From Yoonia sp. (GTDB taxonomy: Bacteria > Pseudomonadota > Alphaproteobacteria > Rhodobacterales > Rhodobacteraceae): 64,000 nucleotides of DNA. The position numbers and the translations under genes are program-made. The notes under the pieces are model-generated. The model saw nothing but the letters and a program-made list of their open reading frames with translations, was not told the origin of the DNA and did no database searches. Of this stretch, positions 247-64,000 are shown piece by piece. Positions within the stretch are counted from its first letter, which is position 1. The number at the start of each line of letters is the position of its first letter. The stretch spans positions 1-64,000 of the forward strand of contig NZ_JAGYJK010000002.1 in the NCBI RefSeq assembly GCF_018402175.1, given 5' to 3'.

Positions 247-1671
247 TTATCCTGGTGGCGGCCACGCCGGATACCGGCGCAGGTTGGCGAGGATCTCGGC
301 AATGTCGCTGGCGTAGGGATACGCCTCGGAGAACGAGAGCCAGACCTTGCGTACCGTGATCTGGATCCGGGCACCGATCTTTAGCCACTTCAACCGGATG
401 GTCGTGCACTGGGCCTTCGCATGCCGGGTACCCTGCAGGCCGAGACGCCGAAGGCCATGCATCAGGACATAGGCGAAGGAGGAGAAGTACAGACGCAGTT
501 GATTGGCACGCATTGTTGCCGTGCTCGTGCGGTCGGCAAACAATCCCAGTTGCTGCTCCTTGATGCGATTCTCCATTTCGCCACGCACGCAGTACAGCTT
601 CTCATACAGGTGCTTGGCACCGCCTCGGCTGACCGGCAGGTTGGTGACCACGAAGCGCGGATTCTCTTTGTAGGGCAGGTACTCGGCCTTGCCCACCACC
701 CGGCGCTCACAGGACCAGGACTTGCGGGTCCGGTAGCGGAAGTCGCGGAACCGCCTAGCCGACTTGCCGGTGATCTCGTGCTCGGCGCGCGCCTCGGCCA
801 GTTCCCGGCCCAAGGCTTTGTAAAGCCGTTTGTTGCGGGCCAGTCCCAGCACATAGCCAACCCGGTTCTCCTCGCACCAGCTCATGATGGCATCTCTGCA
901 GAAACCGGAGTCACCGCGGATCACGATCCGCGTCTTCGGCCAGCGGGCCCGGATCTGGCCCACGATCCGCTCCAGTTCCTCAACGCTACCCGCGGCACCA
1001 TCGGCATTCGACGGACGCAGCCGTGCGCACAGCAAGTGTTCGCCACAGAAGATATACAGTGGCAAATAGCAGTAACACCCATAGTATCCGTGGAAGAAGC
1101 GCCCCTCCTGGTTGCCATGCAGGGGATCATCGGTCGCATCCAGATCGAGCCAGATCTCCCGTGGCGGCCGCTCATGGGACTCCAGGAACAGATCCACCAG
1201 CAACCGGTCCAGGGCCTCGGGGTCAGCCGCGATCTTCTTGTAACGATCCCCGGCCGCTGAACCGGGCGTGCCCAGCTCAAGGCGGTTGAGGGTGCTCGAA
1301 CCAGCCAGGGGATAGCCCTGGTCTCGAGCCCGCTCCCGGCGCGCCCCCGTCAGATCCCGCTTGCCGACCAGTGCCGCCAGCAAGCTGTCCGCGCGTAGCG
1401 TGTCGTGATCGTTAAGATCCTCGTAACCGAGCGCCAGGCCATACACCCGCTGCGCGACCAGCGCCTGAACGCTGTGCTCGACACTGTTGGGGTTGCGGTA
1501 ATCGGTGAAGCAGGCGGCCAGTCGGGGCAGCATGCCCAGGCGAACATCCACCTCCCGGAGCAACAGGCCGCCACCGTCCGAAGTGATGCGACCGCCGTCA
1601 AAACGGCCCACCACTTCCCGACGACCTAATGCGTGAAATTCCAGCTGTGGGGAGTTACACTCTGTAACCAT
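247..1671 (-). CDS. IS1380-family DDE transposase
   Basis: This 474-residue protein catalyses cut-and-paste movement of its own element. The DDE triad can be placed: Asp178 in IWLDLDATDDP, Asp254 in IRGDSGF, and Glu367 in the Y-(2)-R-(3)-E block YCVRGEMENRIKE at 360-372. The length fits the IS1380 family. The frame is uninterrupted, in sharp contrast to the indel-ridden genes just to its right. That could mean a recent insertion, or that a multicopy element was better corrected during assembly. The start at 1671 (MVTECNSPQ) begins the conserved N-terminus. Confidence 0.93.
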   Translation of the reverse strand: MVTECNSPQLEFHALGRREVVGRFDGGRITSDGGGLLLREVDVRLGMLPRLAACFTDYRNPNSVEHSVQALVAQRVYGLALGYEDLNDHDTLRADSLLAALVGKRDLTGARRERARDQGYPLAGSSTLNRLELGTPGSAAGDRYKKIAADPEALDRLLVDLFLESHERPPREIWLDLDATDDPLHGNQEGRFFHGYYGCYCYLPLYIFCGEHLLCARLRPSNADGAAGSVEELERIVGQIRARWPKTRIVIRGDSGFCRDAIMSWCEENRVGYVLGLARNKRLYKALGRELAEARAEHEITGKSARRFRDFRYRTRKSWSCERRVVGKAEYLPYKENPRFVVTNLPVSRGGAKHLYEKLYCVRGEMENRIKEQQLGLFADRTSTATMRANQLRLYFSSFAYVLMHGLRRLGLQGTRHAKAQCTTIRLKWLKIGARIQITVRKVWLSFSEAYPYASDIAEILANLRRYPAWPPPG

Positions 1672-1748
1672 AGGCCTCTTCCTCTTGTGCTGGGTAAGTG
1701 CTTGGCGGCTCTTACTTTATGCACCAGATAGAGGCCTATTTCAATTCT

Positions 1749-1767
1749 ATCGGTGAGATTTCCGGGC
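1749..1767 (-). repeat. candidate right terminal inverted repeat of the IS1380-like element
   Basis: ATCGGTGAG at 1749-1757 is the exact complement of CTCACCGAT at 11-19, and CGGGC at 1763-1767 mirrors GCCCG at 1-5. It lies about 80 bases upstream of the transposase start, a usual distance for this family. Confidence 0.35.
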
Positions 1768-1922
1768 GGCTAGCCCTGTGCCAGCCAACGACGCAATCTG
1801 TGCCGGGAGAAAGCCTGCGGAAATTGACATGGCGAAGAATCTCAAGCATTGCCTTCACTTCGGTCGTCCACGCCAAACCACAGGGTGCCGCACCTCATCC
1901 GGCGCGGCGGCTCTGGCTCTCC

Positions 1923-2191
1923 TCAGTTACCCTTTTTCGAGGACAGGGGTTCGGTCGTTTCTCCCGCTTCGGACTGGTCCTTTTGCTCGACATCGCAGCG
2001 CTCCTGTAAAGCTTTAATTTCCGGATACGAAACGTCGTCTGTGTAGCGTTCCTTGTCGTTGAGTTGGGCACTGGGTGGCGGGCATTAGTTTCTCATCGTC
2101 GTCGTGACCACCCAACGTGGGCGAACGCCCCAATGGAAGCCGTGGACGCAAATGCAGCAACAGTAAACACCAAAGTATGAATAATCGTCAT
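1923..2191 (-). pseudogene. small secreted Asp/Glu-rich protein of a metal-efflux cluster, frameshifted
   Basis: Reading leftward from the ATG at 2191 gives a signal peptide (MTIIHTLVFTVAAFASTASI, then GAFAHVG). After one extra base the frame resumes as GGHDDDEKLMPAT. After a second extra base it resumes as AQLNDKERYTDDVSYPEIK, then ALQERCDVEQKDQSEAGE, and ends at 1923. The restored product is about 88 residues, exported, acidic, with a HDDDE patch near the mature N-terminus that could bind metal. I do not recognise a named family. It is the last gene of the minus-strand RND cluster and probably periplasmic. The smooth continuation across two single-base shifts makes a real ancestral gene very likely; function is inferred only from context. 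Confidence 0.6.
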
Positions 2192-2286
2192 TTTCTAAAT
2201 CTCCATTCAAGTGTGACCCGTATTTCCACGGGAGGTTGGGGCAGGGATAGACGACGCCAAAATTTCTGCGTTGCCTGGGTACGGGG

Positions 2287-2932
2287 TTAAATCACGCGCT
2301 TCATTTCCGCGTACTGGCCGCGGGTGCGAACGATGACGGTCACGTCGGCGCTCCCCCAGTTTCGCCAGAACCAGCCATGATTGCCATCAAAGGCTGCTTC
2401 AAGGGTACCTTCGTTGGAAGGCACACTACGGCCCTTCTCATAGCTGATGGATTGGCCCCGCCATCGCCATGCGTGTCAAAGTTGACGACACCGCCCTGCG
2501 CCACCCAGCTGAATTCCGCGCGCTCTCCAGCCTGCATGACGAGTTTGATCTCGGTGCCTTGTCCGGGAGTGAGCACTACCTGCATCTCGTCCCGCCAGCT
2601 ATCCGCTGCTGGCGAAGGAGTTAGGGTCGGACTGGGCCGTGGCAAGACTTGCGCTGGCGACCTGTGGAGCGACCAGCTGTATGGCATCACGCACAGCGGC
2701 CGCTTCCCATCTCTGCGTCGAGGGCTGCTTCTTCTGCCAATTGAGTCTTGATCTCACCCATTTCCGTCAGTCCCAGGACCCGACCGACACCGGTCGGATC
2801 GATGGCGTATTCAGAGGGAAGTACGATCGTGACCAGTATCACAATAGCGGCAATCAGGGCGATGAGCGTTGAACGCAGCAACTGCTGAGAGCTTGGCGGT
2901 TCGTCAGGGGTTGGTTTGACGACATTGTGCAT
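2287..2932 (-). pseudogene. membrane-anchor protein associated with RND metal efflux, frameshifted
   Basis: The N-terminus (start 2932) has a cytoplasmic segment, one transmembrane helix (STLIALIAAIVILVTIVLP at about residues 22-40), and the block EYAIDPTGVGRVLGLTEMG. It continues in shifted frames through RDEMQVVLTPGQGTEIKLVM and GGVVNFDTHGD, then a segment with EAAFDGNHGWFWRNWGSADV, ending at KRVI* (2287). At least three single-base shifts are needed. About 214 residues are restored, matching the 'transmembrane anchor protein' that accompanies HupE and CusA/CzcA genes in Gammaproteobacteria. The role is unknown; a C-terminal beta-sandwich outside the membrane is likely. It lies 22 bases after the HupE-like gene. 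Confidence 0.7.
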
Positions 2933-2954
2933 AAAGAGTACTCCGTAAGCAGGG

Positions 2955-6841
<3,887 letters not shown>

Positions 6842-13088: not shown

Positions 13089-13090
13089 TC

Positions 13091-13122
13091 ATCTTCCGAG
13101 CCTAAATATCCCCGCCGGAGGC
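13091..13122 (+). repeat. dispersed repeat family A, copy 1 (between transglycosylase and smc)
   Basis: The copy reads ATCTTCCGAGCC, then TAAATATCCCC, then GCCGGAGGC. It occupies nearly all of the 44-base gap between two convergent genes, where a bidirectional terminator would be expected. Related copies lie at 16713, 21044 (inside cobN), 42650, 43206 and 56973. Confidence 0.85.
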
Positions 13123-16712: not shown

Positions 16713-16760
16713 CATCTTCCGAGCCCAAATATCCCCGCCGGAGGCAGCGCCGAAGGCGCT
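16713..16760 (-). repeat. dispersed repeat family A, copy 2, with hairpin
   Basis: The core (CATCTTCCGAGCC, CAAATATCCCC, GCCGGAGGC) at 16713-16745 is followed by the perfect hairpin AGCGCC-GAA-GGCGCT at 16746-16760. Read on the minus strand this is hairpin first, then GGGGATATTT, a terminator-like layout. It stands between smc and the cobalamin riboswitch. Confidence 0.85.
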
Positions 16761-16824
16761 TCTGACACGGCCAAGGTCGGTTACGGGCTTGACCGCCTGC
16801 TACCAATGTAGGCACAAAGGTATG

Positions 16825-17017
16825 GCATGGTTCCCCGTACGGCGCGCAGCGTCAGGGGATCAAATGGGAATGTGGACGCACCGATCCTGTCAGGGAGGCG
16901 CCAAGCCACAGCCGCCCCCGCGACTGTATGCGGAGAGTGCCTTGTTAATACGCCACTGGGGTTCGCCCGGGAAGGCAACAAGGTGCATCGACCCGCAAGC
17001 CAGGAGACCAGCCATGC
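16825..17017 (+). promoter_or_regulatory. cobalamin (adenosylcobalamin-type) riboswitch upstream of hupE
   Basis: The conserved blocks of the Cobalamin riboswitch occur in order. The P1 arm GGCATGG is at 16824-16830, pairing with CCATGC at 17012-17017. A GGTTCCCC / GGGGATCAAATGGGAAT segment follows it. The CCCCCGCGACTGTATGCGG core lies around 16915-16932, GCCACTG at 16952-16958, GGAAGGC at 16970-16976, and the B12 box AGCCAGGAGACCAGCC at 16998-17013. Binding of coenzyme B12 should shut off the genes that follow (hupE, probably cobW onward). Rhodobacteraceae often carry such switches before hupE-type cobalt transporters. Confidence 0.96.
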
Positions 17018-17104
17018 ACCGGGGATCAACCCCGGCCAACAACAACGGACGGGGTGTTCCGTGGGGGTTCTGCATTGGTCGTATGGCCCGTGCTTCCCAT
17101 GAAA

Positions 17105-19377: not shown

Positions 19378-19539
19378 TCAGCCCTTCTTTTCCTCGGCGG
19401 CCTTTTTCATCCGCGCCAGCAATTCGGCCTTGTCGGGACGCGCGCCAAAGGGCTTTTTCTTCGATCCCGGCGCATTGTGTTCTTCGTGCTTGGGGCCTTT
19501 TTTAGCCATTTTCGGTGCTCCTGCAGCGTTGTAATCCAT
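19378..19539 (-). CDS. small basic conserved-looking protein of unknown function
   Basis: This 53-residue frame lies opposite to the cob genes: MDYNAAGAPKMAKKGPKHEE, then HNAPGSKKKPFGARPDKAEL, ending LLARMKKAAEEKKG. It is Lys-rich, cytoplasmic and without transmembrane or Cys residues. A GAGGA ribosome-binding site lies eight bases before the ATG at 19539, which favours this start over the internal ATG at 19509. It fills the GNAT-cobN gap completely, ending three bases past the GNAT stop, and its start lies 47 bases from cobN. I recall similar short proteins in Roseobacter genomes but no function. Confidence 0.6.
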   Translation of the reverse strand: MDYNAAGAPKMAKKGPKHEEHNAPGSKKKPFGARPDKAELLARMKKAAEEKKG

Positions 19540-19586
19540 GGGTCTATCCTCGTGTTTGGTCGCCTCTTAGCACAAGGCAAAAGCTG

Positions 19587-22500
19587 ATGCACCTGCTCGC
19601 CGCCACCCCCGGTGCGATTTCGGACGGGACCGAACCGGTCGATCTGGGCCAGACGCCTGCCGATGTAGTCATCATCTCTGCCGCCGATACCGAACTGGCC
19701 GCCCTGGCCGAAGCACGGGCCGAAATGACCAACCCGCCTACCTTGCGGCTGGCCAATATGCTGCATCTGGCACATCCGATGTCGGTCGATCTGCATCTGG
19801 ACGATTGCGCCACCAAATCGCGTCTGGTGATCGCCCGCGTGCTGGGTGGTGCAGCCTACTGGAAATACGGCCTGACCCAATATGCCGCGCGACTGCATGA
19901 TGCGGGCGTGCCGGTGGCGTTCCTGCCTGGCGACGATAAACCCGACCCCGAATTGCGCGGGTTGTCCACCGTCAGCGGCACGGATTACGACGCGCTCTGG
20001 TCCTATCTAGTCGAAGGCGGGCCGCAGAACAGTATCAATGCGCTGGCTTATGCAAAGGCGATGCTGGACAGCACCGAAAAACCCAGCGCCGCCGCCCCCT
20101 TGCTGCGCGCCGGCGTCTACTGGCCGGGGGCGGGCATCGCCGATCTGACGATTGCACAGGCGGCATGGACCCCTGACGCGCCCGTCGTGCCGATCATCTT
20201 CTACCGCGCCTTGGTGCAGGGCGGTGGGCTGAACCCGATCAACCGCCTGACGCGCAGCCTGTCGCGCGCCGGTCTGAACCCTTTGCCGATCTTCGTGGCC
20301 AGCCTGAAAGACCCTGTCAGCACTGCCACGCTCGACCATCTGTTCACCATTGCCCCGCCCGCTGTGATCCTGAATTGCACCGCCTTCGCCGTGGGCTCGC
20401 CGCATGACGGCGACGACAGCCCGCAAAACCCGCTGTTGGCCAACAATGCGCCGATCTTTCAGGTGATCCTGTCGGGTGCCTCAGAAGCATCCTGGGCCGA
20501 TGGCCTGCACGGCCTGACAGCCCGCGACATCGCCATGAACGTGGCCCTGCCCGAAGTTGACGGGCGCATCCTGTCGCGCGCGATCAGCTTCAAGGGCGAG
20601 GCGTTCTTTGACGACGCCACCGAATGCCCGATCGCCACCTATCAGGCGCGCGGCGACCGCGTCGATTTCGTCACGCAGCTAACCGGCAACTGGGCACGCC
20701 TGCGGCAAACCCCCACCAAGGATAAAAAAGTCGCCCTGATCCTCGCCAATTACCCCAACAAGGACGGACGCCTCGCCAATGGTGTCGGCCTCGACACGCC
20801 CGCCGCCACGATCCACACGCTGCAACTATTGAGAGAAGCTGGCTACCAGACCACCCCACCCGCCGACAGCGCCGCGCTGATGGCGCAGATCATGGCAGGC
20901 CCAACCAACTGGCTGACCGACCGCGCCGACAAAGCGGGCGGCGAATTGCTCCCCCTCGACACATACCGCCAGTATTTCGATGCCCTGCCGTGGGATATCA
21001 AAGAACAGATCACCACCCGCTGGGGCCAACCCGAAGACGACCCATTCTTCCGAGCCGAAATATCCCCGCCGGAGGCCCCAAGCCGCGCCAGCGGCGCAGG
21101 ATTCGCGCTCTCCATCCATCGTTTCGGCAACGTGGTCGTGGGCCTGCAACCCGCACGCGGCTATAACATCGACCCGACAGAGACCTACCATTCCCCCGAT
21201 CTGGTCCCGCCGCATAATTACCTCGCCTTCTATTTCTGGCTGCGCCACCACTGGATGGCCGATGCGATCGTCCACATGGGCAAACACGGCAACCTCGAAT
21301 GGCTGCCCGGAAAATCCGTCGCCCTGTCGGAAACCTGCTGGCCAGAGACGGTTTTTGGCCCGACCCCGCATATCTATCCGTTCATCGTCAATGATCCGGG
21401 CGAAGGCACGCAGGCCAAACGGCGCGCCTCGGCGGTCATCATCGACCACCTGACGCCGCCGCTGACCCGCGCCGAAAGCTATGGGCCGATGCGCGATCTG
21501 GAAGCCTTGGTTGACGAATGTTACGAGGCCGCCGGCGTTGATCCGCGCCGCGTCACCCATCTGCGGCGCGAAATCCTGTCGCTGTCCGACGCAACGGGCC
21601 TGTCACGCGACGTGGGCTTCACCGGCGAGAGCTGACACCGACCTTGGCAAGCTCGACGCTTACCTGTGCGAGTTGAAAGAGGCGCAGATCAGGGACGGTC
21701 TGCATATCTTCGGCCAATCCCCCACAGGCCAACAGGAACTGGACCTTGCCATCGCCCTCGCCCGCGTGCCGCGTGGAAATGGTAAGGGGCACAATGCCTC
21801 GCTGTTGCGGGCCTTGGCCACAGACCTCGATATCAGCATCGACCCGCTGGATTGCGATATGGCTGCACCAGCGCCCGAAAAACCGGACGCACTGGCCGAT
21901 GGCACCATATGGCGGACCAATGGCGACACCGTGGAACGCCTCGAAAACATGTCGCAACGCCTTGTGCGGGACGGCGGGCGGGGCGTCGTGGGGTTTACCC
22001 CACGCGCGTCGCAGGCCGTTGTGCAAACCATCCGCGACGATATCCTGCCTACCATTCGTGCATGCGGTCCCGCCGAAGGATCGGCCCTGCTCACCGCCCT
22101 TGCTGGGCATTTCGTCCCCCCCGGCCCCTCGGGTGCGCCAACACGCGGGCGGCTTGATGTGTTGCCCACGGGGCGCAACTTCTACAGCGTCGACAGCCGG
22201 GCTGTGCCCACACCGACCGCTTGGGCGCTTGGCTGGAAATCCGCCAATCTGCTGATCGAAAAACACCTGCAAGACCACGGCGACTGGCCGCGCGCCATGC
22301 TGGTCACAGCTTGGGGCACCGCCAATATGCGCACCGGCGGCGATGATATCGCGCAAGCCCTCGCACTCATGGGCGTCAAGCCAACATGGGACAGCGCCAA
22401 CCGCCGCGTCACGGGATTCGACGTGCTGCCGCAAACCGTGCTGGGCCGTCCGCGTGTTGATGTGACCCTGCGCATCTCGGGGTTCTTCCGCGACGCCTTT

Positions 22501-23298
22501 CCGCAACTGATCGCACTGGTGGATAGCGCCGCGCGCGCGGTGCAGGACCTCGATGAGCCCGCCGACCTGAACCCTGCCGCTGCGCGGGCCAAAGCAGGCG
22601 AGGATGCTACCCGCGTTTTCGGCTCCAAACCCGGCGCTTATGGCGCGGGGCTGCAGGCCCTGATCGACGAGCGCATCTGGTCCGACAAATCCGATTTCGC
22701 CGCCGCCTATATCGCTTGGGGCAGCTATGCTTACGGCGCCAAGGCCAGCGGCGAGCGTGCGGAAGCGGCCTTCAAGGAACGCCTGTCCCAAGTCGAAGCC
22801 ATCGTGCAGAATCAGGACAACCGCGAACACGACATCCTCGACAGCGACGATTACTACCAGTTCGAAGGCGGGGCCGCCGCCGCCGTCAGCACCTTGCAAG
22901 GGCGCGACCGCCCGATCTATCACAACGACCATTCCCGCCCCGAACGGCCCGTGATCCGCACGCTGGACGATGAAATCGGGCGTGTCGTGCGGTCGCGCGT
23001 GGTCAATCCCAAATGGATCGACGGGGTGAAACGGCACGGCTACAAAGGTGCTTTCGAGATCGCGGCAACGGTCGATTACCTTTTCGCCTTTGCCGCCACG
23101 ACAGGGGCCGTGCGCAACCATCATTTCGATCTGGTGGAAGAGGCGTTCCTGAAAGACGACGACACTCGCAATTTTATCGCCGACACCAATGCCCCCGCGC
23201 TGCGCGAAATCGCCCAGCGCCTGCAAGAGGCGATCGACCGCAACCTGTGGCAGCCCGCCTCGAATTCCGCGCGCGCGCGCATCGCGGGCCTGTTATGA
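19587..23298 (+). CDS. cobN: cobaltochelatase subunit CobN (one frameshift, one repeat-derived insertion)
   Basis: CobN is the large ATP-dependent chelatase subunit that inserts Co(II) into hydrogenobyrinate a,c-diamide with CobS and CobT, which are absent here. The restored length is about 1,236 residues. Family blocks include MHLLAATPGAISDGTE at the start, FGNVVVGLQPARGYN, VHMGKHGNLEWLPGKSVALS, LKEAQIRDGLHIFGQSPTG and HDILDSDDYYQFEGGAAAAV. The frame breaks at about 21,632-21,636: the first part ends FTGES* and the second resumes DTDLGKLDAYLCEL if one base is dropped. Residues encoded at 21,047-21,095 come from a dispersed repeat. The start ATG at 19587 begins the conserved N-terminus. Confidence 0.92.
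21044..21095 (+). repeat. dispersed repeat family A, copy 3, inside the cobN coding region
   Basis: CTTCCGAGCC, GAAATATCCCC and GCCGGAGGC at 21047-21076 match the intergenic copies at all but one base of a 30-base core. A hairpin GCCGC-GCCA-GCGGC at 21082-21095 follows, as in other copies. It is read in frame as FFRAEISPPEAPSRASGAG, between DDP and FALSIHRFG, where CobN proteins as I recall them have only a few residues. Confidence 0.85.
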
Positions 23299-42649: not shown

Positions 42650-42701
42650 CATCTTCGGAGCCAAAATATCCCCGCCGGAGGCTTGGCGCGGCCTTGGCCG
42701 C
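42650..42701 (-). repeat. dispersed repeat family A, copy 4, with hairpin
   Basis: CATCTTCGGAGCC, AAAATATCCCC, GCCGGAGGC at 42650-42682, followed by the palindrome GCGGCC-TT-GGCCGC at 42688-42701. It lies in the 129-base gap between the XRE-cupin gene start and the fRMsr gene end, i.e. at the 3' side of the fRMsr gene. Confidence 0.85.
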
Positions 42702-43205: not shown

Positions 43206-43250
43206 CATGCCTGCGGCATGTCCCCCGGAGGATATTTATACTCGGATGAT
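43206..43250 (+). repeat. dispersed repeat family A, divergent copy 5, with hairpin
   Basis: Hairpin CATGCC-TGC-GGCATG at 43206-43220, then CCCCCGGAGGATATTTATA and CTCGGATGAT. This is the complement orientation of copies 1-4 and shows the same order (hairpin, GGATATTT, CTCGGA) with several changes. It sits in the gap between the fRMsr and thiolase genes. Confidence 0.7.
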
Positions 43251-43251
43251 G

Positions 43252-56972: not shown

Positions 56973-57021
56973 GCCGAAGGACTTTTGTGCCTTCGGCGAG
57001 GATATTTAAGCTCGGAAGATG
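56973..57021 (+). repeat. dispersed repeat family A, copy 6, acting as terminator after rnr
   Basis: The hairpin GCCGAAGG (56973-56980) / CCTTCGGC (56990-56997) is followed by GAGGATATTTAAG and CTCGGAAGATG. Same order as the other copies in complement orientation. It stands between the convergent rnr and rppH genes, nine bases after the rnr stop. Confidence 0.85.
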
Positions 57022-61311: not shown

Positions 61312-61359
61312 GGACCCCGCCGGTGATCGGGTTATATCACCAACCTCCCTGTTGGACTT

Positions 61360-61388
61360 GCCCGGGCCTTGTGCCCGGGCGTTTTTTT
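61360..61388 (+). terminator. intrinsic terminator after the response regulator
   Basis: GCCCGGGC (61360-61367) and GCCCGGGC (61373-61380) pair around CTTGT, followed by GTTTTTTT. It isolates the regulator from the rhodanese gene. Confidence 0.93.
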
Positions 61389-63923: not shown

Positions 63924-64000
63924 TCCGCGGCGCACTCTATCTGCGGCGGTGGGACACCCTTCCCCAACGAAGGGCGATTATCTGAGAGGATACCAGAAAT
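63924..64000 (+). promoter_or_regulatory. candidate serC leader motif and start of the next gene
   Basis: The segment upstream of the right edge contains CCGCGGCGCA / CTGCGG pairing and the perfect hairpin CCCTTC-CCCAAC-GAAGGG (63957-63974), then AGAGGATACCAGAAAT. A conserved serC RNA motif is known before serC in Alphaproteobacteria. The window stops at AAAT; a following G would make ATG seven bases after GAGGA. Both the RNA call and the gene identity rest on position opposite serB. Confidence 0.35.

Follow-up and report, generated by a model that had tools for sequence, protein, structure and literature searches.

A dispersed repeat read in frame within cobN of Yoonia and its relation to the intergenic copies of the same genome

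Bacterial proteins are already known to contain repeats, and the systems closest to the one described here are the palindromic elements of Rickettsia (RPE), the REP sequences and the DNA uptake sequences of Neisseria. RPEs are 105-146 bp long, have terminal inverted repeats and are found in 19 reading frames (PMC2229807). GTAG and CGTC REPs contain 20-40 bases and are located mainly behind coding regions, while some are intragenic and are argued to lie in linkers or loops (PMC3733652). The CGTC families, which have no dedicated transposase, predominate in alphaproteobacteria, and this CGTC kind also includes two short repeats of R. conorii, RPE-4 and RPE-6 (PMC3733652). The main text of that survey names no Rhodobacter, Roseobacter or Paracoccus, and two surveys of stem-loop repeats likewise leave Rhodobacter and Roseobacter unnamed in their main texts. 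The uptake sequences of Neisseria have 10-12 bases, and three named genomes contain 1,543 to 3,770 of them (PMC3630211), and one Neisseriaceae genome carries two versions of them (PMC3630211, PMC2397512).

The window analysed here is the whole stretch of 64,000 nucleotides at the start of contig NZ_JAGYJK010000002.1 of Yoonia sp. (GCF_018402175.1), and its features are collected in Table 1. The original prediction was that a palindromic repeat is inserted in frame within cobN. This was confirmed, as the site matches a dispersed repeat letter for letter. The core CTTCCGAGCCNAAATATCCCC stands at 21047-21067 on the + strand and is read in the cobN frame as DPFFRAEISPPEAPSRASGAGFALS without any stop. 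The copy is made up of the tail CTTCCGAGCC, AAATAT and the hairpin CCGCCGGAGGC, reading (F)-R-A-E-I-S-P-P-E-A, and the usual “sense” strand of the element is the - strand here. Compared with the 33-nt block conserved over the genomic copies (CATCTTCCGAGCCNAAATATCCCCGCCGGAGGC, with a sharp left edge), the leading CA is missing, which puts the boundary at about 21046/47 rather than at the predicted 21044. The flanking hairpin resembles the flank of an intergenic copy (L090; score 17 versus a mean shuffled best of 10.5, with 0 of 200 as high) and is common to L012 and L013, whose tail differs. Judged from these letters, it probably belongs to the element, and the total insert would be about 50 bases. 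The whole inserted segment reads FFRAEISPPEAPSRASGAG, again stop-free. The distance from DPF to GF is 17 residues in this CobN versus 4 in the shortest loops, that is, about 13 more, where about 15 added residues had been predicted.

Table 1. Coordinates of the cobN parts and of the repeat copies in the window.
Feature	Position	Strand	Basis
cobN, first part, Pfam CobN-Mg_chel 1-543	19515..21635	+	ORF and profile match
Core of the repeat in cobN	21047..21076	+	exact pattern match and sequence
Flanking hairpin CCGCGCCAGCGG in cobN, probable second part of the inserted element, read P-S-R-A-S-G-A	21077..21098	+	
cobN, second part, other frame, Pfam CobN-Mg_chel 551-1088	21481..23298	+	ORF and profile match
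Intergenic copy between convergent genes	13090..13122	+	pattern match 13093; element at the corresponding site of Y. vestfoldensis G054
Intergenic copy about 65 bases before cobalamin riboswitch	16713..16745	+	pattern match 16716; element at same place in G054
Intergenic copy, 1 mismatch	42650..42682	+	pattern match 42653
Intergenic variant copy, other hairpin, GGAGGATATTTATACTCGGATGATG	43207..43251	-	by eye; outside the reach of the pattern
Intergenic copy, 2 mismatches, downstream of a + strand gene	56989..57021	-	pattern match 56998

Allowing at most two mismatches, the repeat pattern was found in 87 places of the 3.01-Mb genome, and the reversed-pattern control gave 0. The intergenic copies predicted at 13091, 16713, 42650, 43206 and 56973 are all present, that at 43206 being a variant. 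A structured RNA was rejected, as the mean folding z of the 87 copies against simple letter shuffles is just -0.8 (40 of 87 below -1). No Rfam family was matched by the window copies at gathering scores. The Rfam matches in the window are a cobalamin riboswitch (16811-17030), SorX sRNA (61314-61386) and a serC leader (63947-63998). According to home-made gene calls, 74 of the 87 copies touch no called gene, and 13 overlap one, 11 of them near one end of the gene and two deep inside (cobN and L122). Generally, the orientation follows the neighbouring gene: 32 copies sit between two converging genes and are uninformative, five have no gene ending at the site, and for the 37 with one gene ending there the hairpin lies towards the gene in 30 and away from it in 7 (p=2e-4). 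These counts point to a usual order of stop codon, hairpin, AUAUUU and tail, which is terminator-like, although the copies fold just slightly better than shuffled letters. Besides, copy pairs about 130-175 bases apart occur with their tails facing (e.g. G013:C5:230592 and 230724), and their spacing is alike in several Yoonia genomes, as if each converging gene had its own copy.

A frameshift breaks the cobN gene itself, in which one base near 21632 is additional to the sequence of five close relatives, and the change within 21600-21640 is either a real pseudogene mutation or a sequencing error. Its translation may start near 19587, judging from relatives. A second, distant CobN/chelatase-like gene (30% identity) is found in the same genome (G000:C16:704013-705428), which could make a loss of cobN tolerable. 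The structure model of this CobN matches CobN 7c6o and puts the insert (488-504) between strands 488-492 and 503-508. Model confidence is below 50 at 496-501, and the model as a whole is weak (mean pLDDT 65.8). In the model, the insert appears as a low-confidence turn between two strands of CobN. The solved CobN 9uk9 has no insert here, and the HMMER alignment leaves a gap of 11 columns.

We searched 56 genomes of the same genus and obtained 54 cobN segments; one genome gave no match and one only a paralogue of 33% identity. A recognisable repeat (up to 4 mismatches against a version pattern) is contained in 46 of the 54, at the same codon and in the same orientation and phase, L043 is one more likely carrier, and the other seven have a short or unrelated loop. 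For the wider Rhodobacteraceae we took the best 80 of 562 relatives, with the segment extracted in 72 and the other 8 as protein only. Among these 80, short CobN loops are found in Octadecabacter (DPFLRDDGFALS), Paradonghicola, Cognatishimia, some Litoreibacter and Roseovarius albus, and filled ones in Loktanella, Cognatiyoonia, Pseudooctadecabacter, other Litoreibacter, Limimaricola, Marimonas arenosa and Pseudoruegeria. The site has Phe codons on both sides in short loops too, so that they are uninformative on a target-site duplication, the mark of a MITE. L167 and L215 carry yet another variant of the element here, with inserts whose hairpin is G-rich (CCCAGGGGGAGGCGCAGCCGGGGGACAGCG). A nearly direct passage of CobN from DDPFFR to FALS, as had been suggested, holds for some other genera and fails for most Yoonia. 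The repeat is dispersed, in frame, tolerated and placed in a loop that is short in several other genera, as had been proposed, but a recent insertion peculiar to this genome was rejected, because the same codon is filled in 46 of 54 Yoonia and several other genera.

It is mainly the tail half of the cobN insert that varies. The 46 typed copies show at least five tail versions plus a form F: version A is CTTCCGAG, version B TCGCTTTG, version C TTCTYWTGTTC (including CTTCTGTTC), version D TTTCYNYGTCC, and version E ATCATCTTGCC or ATCATTTTGCC. Versions A-E were counted genome-wide in the 56 genomes with zero control matches, while form F (4 of 46) was outside this count and, among the matches listed for G039, was seen solely in cobN. 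The versions are clade-specific, several coexist within one genome, and any counted version has at most 99 copies per genome.

All 46 copies entered the version statistics, of which 35 and 21 were used with at most one and with zero mismatches. It turned out that most of the close cobN matches (27 of 35) have a further copy of the same version in their own genome, compared with a shuffled mean of 8.1 (0 of 20000 as high), under a permutation that ignores the relatedness of genomes. The same holds for 20 of 21 exact matches (shuffled mean 5.4; 0 of 20000 as high) and for 32 of 46 under the looser typing with at most 4 mismatches (shuffled mean 10.6). No such further copy was found for 8 of the 35 (e.g. 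G001, G051 and G014) and 14 of the 46. For example, CTTCTGTTC is found in only 3 of 56 genomes, which are the three that have it in cobN, and in one of them, G022 (72% complete), cobN is the sole copy. The cobN of G033 has TTTTGTTC and ATATC, the same as the six other copies found in G033, and that of G031 has ATACC, the same as the four other G031 copies. Sister genomes, on branches of moderate support, also contrast: G044 (cobN D; 20 D and 3 C in the genome) versus G011 (cobN C; 9 C and 0 D), and G003 (cobN D; 20 D and 2 C) versus G032 (cobN C; 4 C and 0 D). Versions A and B are both present in the genome of the window, in G054 and in G019, and the version match is non-exclusive there.

These results bear on the objection that the PPEA residues are an ancestral part of the CobN loop and that the likeness of the DNA comes from coincidence or codon bias. 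The presence of the segment in most Yoonia CobN would agree with it, but the 21-base core is exact with zero control matches, the protein letters shift with the DNA version, the loop is short in Octadecabacter, Cognatishimia, Paradonghicola and others, and the version matches the pool of the genome. A native loop is hardly credible on these four points and was rejected. CobN carrying the same residues in genomes free of the repeat had been named as the finding that would speak for a native segment. The data mostly point the other way, as 27 of 35 have their version elsewhere and short-loop CobN has other residues, with the 8 of 35 as exceptions.

To follow the versions through descent, we placed A-F on a cobN tree that excludes the segment and has 17 of 56 forks weak, and this requires 11 changes (minimum possible 5); the well-supported branches alone force at least three changes each for B, C and E, two for D and one for A. 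An exchange of whole cobN alleles, tails included, between species would yield patchy versions on a species tree; the changes here are counted on the cobN tree itself, the tail and the far half disagree, and the tail mostly suits the recipient genome, which leaves this reading very improbable.

The two halves of the insert behave differently. We compared pairs of segments whose flanks are at least 80% alike (35 of 54 segments used; the pairs are not independent). In same-version pairs (n=29) the tail is 0.92 and the far half 0.70 alike, while in different-version pairs (n=23) the tail is 0.57 and the far half 0.69 alike, the latter mean being raised by the clade of the window, which supplies 8 of the 23 pairs. 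Outside this clade, the values are 0.91 and 0.63 for the same version (n=22) and 0.57 and 0.57 for different versions (n=15). As background, tails of different versions are 0.58 alike, and far halves of distant pairs 0.21. For instance, the cobN of the window and L012 have far halves that are equal nearly letter for letter and different tails, and the species L009 and L012 have different tails and identical far halves. The Phe codon at the edge tracks the version (TTT in 6 of 6 D, TTC in 9 of 9 C; p=2e-4). Different tails beside similar far halves point to the tail being copied from the pool, with the hairpin as one boundary, rather than to a new insertion.

A new insertion is nevertheless what a hot spot would provide, at which the element is lost and reinserted at the same codon from the current pool by an unknown transposition machinery. 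The short loop of L046 (DPFIHADGFAL) is nested among filled ones, with the insert present in its sister L017 (support 98), different versions are found here in several genera, and the far halves diverge between clades down to the background of 0.21, all of which suits reinsertion. However, phase and orientation are constant in the typed copies, the far half stays alike where the tail differs, and no Y1/RAYT transposase match was found in the window's genome, G053, G054 or G019, so we regard a hot spot as rather unlikely. An old insertion with overwriting of its tail fits the data better than repeated insertion.

Similar tail changes are seen between genes. Of 38 orthologous intergenic sites of the window's genome and G054 (87 copies of the former, chosen for one tail, against 56 stretches of G054, all element-bearing), 18 retain CTTCCGAG, 10 show a difference in the same two or three tail bases, giving CGTTCGAG (6) or CGTTGGAG (4), and 10 differ otherwise. 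Such changes could also come from selection on the sequence, if the tails were binding or uptake signals of a changing trans factor that all copies follow, like the dialects of Neisseria. The like differences at 10 of 38 sites, the clade-specific versions and the position of copies behind genes agree with this. However, versions coexist in one genome, a regulatory need for a reverse copy within cobN is hard to see, and there are at most 99 copies per counted version versus the 1,543 to 3,770 given for three Neisseria genomes (PMC3630211). Selection of this kind seems improbable to us, and the uptake-sequence reading in particular was rejected for its low copy number.

Taken together, the explanation we favour, and think probably right though far from certain, is one old insertion whose tail was repeatedly overwritten from the pool of the genome, a concerted evolution of coding sequence with intergenic repeats. 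A gene-end repeat of about 50 bases would have been inserted once, long ago, in frame and in reverse of its usual orientation, in the turn of a CobN beta-hairpin, and then inherited as a tolerated loop. The outer half, comprising the tail, AAATAT, the sequence up to the CCGCCGGAGGC hairpin and the Phe codon at the edge, would have been repeatedly overwritten from intergenic copies of the same genome by short-tract gene conversion or a similar process, with the hairpin as the crossover zone, while the other half would follow vertical descent. The position and phase of the insert, its changes of version along the cobN tree, the agreement with the own genome and the differing behaviour of the halves are observed, whereas we infer the templated copying, its direction and the single origin. 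Gene conversion of REPs was reportedly proposed by Higgins in 1988. Two points count against the copying view: a tract of about 30 bases would be short by the standards of known homologous recombination, and no event was seen between strains of one species. A broader version, in which Rhodobacterales possess a dedicated short-tract copying process that acts across the genome on one half of the dispersed 30-base repeats and extends into cobN, is possible but still doubtful.

If the overwriting is real, part of the CobN loop owes its sequence to the intergenic repeat pool rather than to descent. The cobN site would then be a natural recorder, in which the coding flanks report descent and the tail reports copying events, and the upkeep of uniformity in dispersed bacterial repeats could be tested there directly. 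We know of no description of a coding copy rewritten half-element-wise to match intergenic copies over tens of species, and no report of a coding repeat rewritten in this way appeared among the open-licence titles listed.

Coding copies are few in the two genomes scanned, with one coding-spanned copy among 83 in the window's genome and one among 58 in G054, in a scan that misses the cobN copy of G054 and the joint copy of L122. In Y. vestfoldensis G054 (L246, at about 1.73 Mb), an in-frame copy, LLISENTPAGGDPEGSHGTT, lies in a linker of a B12-dependent ribonucleotide reductase-like protein (NrdJ), with a tail version and a phase that both differ from cobN. In L122 (708-2933, - strand), a MoxR-like AAA ATPase and a VWA part share a single open frame with a copy at the joint (TSHLPSRNIPQG). 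Each part resembles an NCBIfam model of its own at a score under the cut-off, and a gene fusion by the repeat is possible. In cobN, L246 and L122 the copy is read tail first on the coding strand, the reverse of what is usual behind genes, and this antisense orientation may reflect selection against a terminator-like element in sense. Besides, 20 plasmid records contain likely relatives of the element at E values of 1 or less (best 6e-3), 10 of them with at least 80% of the query covered. Most are from Paracoccus, Tritonibacter and Ruegeria, and a match in a Cytobacillus plasmid is probably chance. A gene lies under the match in 0 of 18 annotated records, for which the gene table is incomplete. 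The two plasmid relatives examined lie between genes in opposite orientation, which argues against a universal terminator role. Spread by phage was rejected, as the version-A pattern, the one searched, is absent from viral contigs.

As to transposition, the Y1 (RAYT) transposase profile PF01797 gave no match at E <= 0.001 in the window's genome, G053, G054 and G019, and RAYT mobilisation is unsupported in the absence of a match in the window's own genome; the profile is over cut-off in 8 of the 56 genomes and weak in 3 more, including G055.

In comparison with known systems, the likeness to the Rickettsia elements that had been suggested holds in behaviour, and fails in length, long palindrome and wide spread among proteins. 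Like RPEs and their Wolbachia counterparts, the Yoonia repeat is dispersed between genes and has tolerated in-frame insertions in proteins (cobN, and NrdJ in G054). Unlike them, it has a 33-base core, a weak hairpin, mainly one protein and version-dependent tails, and in the window's genome and G054 it is not spread through many protein genes. It is like REPs in size class, high copy number (87) and position mainly behind coding regions, and differs from them in its versioned tail. By eye, neither a GTAG tag with a 5-13 bp stem nor a CGTC tag with an 8-9 bp stem is present in the version-A consensus of the 87 copies; this consensus has CCTC beside a stem of 3-5 pairs, and CCTC is a variant form named in PMC3733652. 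With the DNA uptake sequences of Neisseria it shares clade-specific versions, a link to terminators and copies inside genes, whereas it is about 30 bases long, with at most 99 copies per version and several versions per genome. It resembles intrinsic terminators in that stop codons are followed by a hairpin and AUAUUU, mostly in the direction of the gene. A plain intrinsic terminator needs no conserved tail beyond the U tract, and the repeat is unlike one in having such a tail and in its weak folding (mean z -0.8). In conclusion, by its length, palindrome, tag and transposase, the Yoonia repeat would stand outside the definitions of RPE and REP, while on our analysis it works like RPEs and intragenic REPs.
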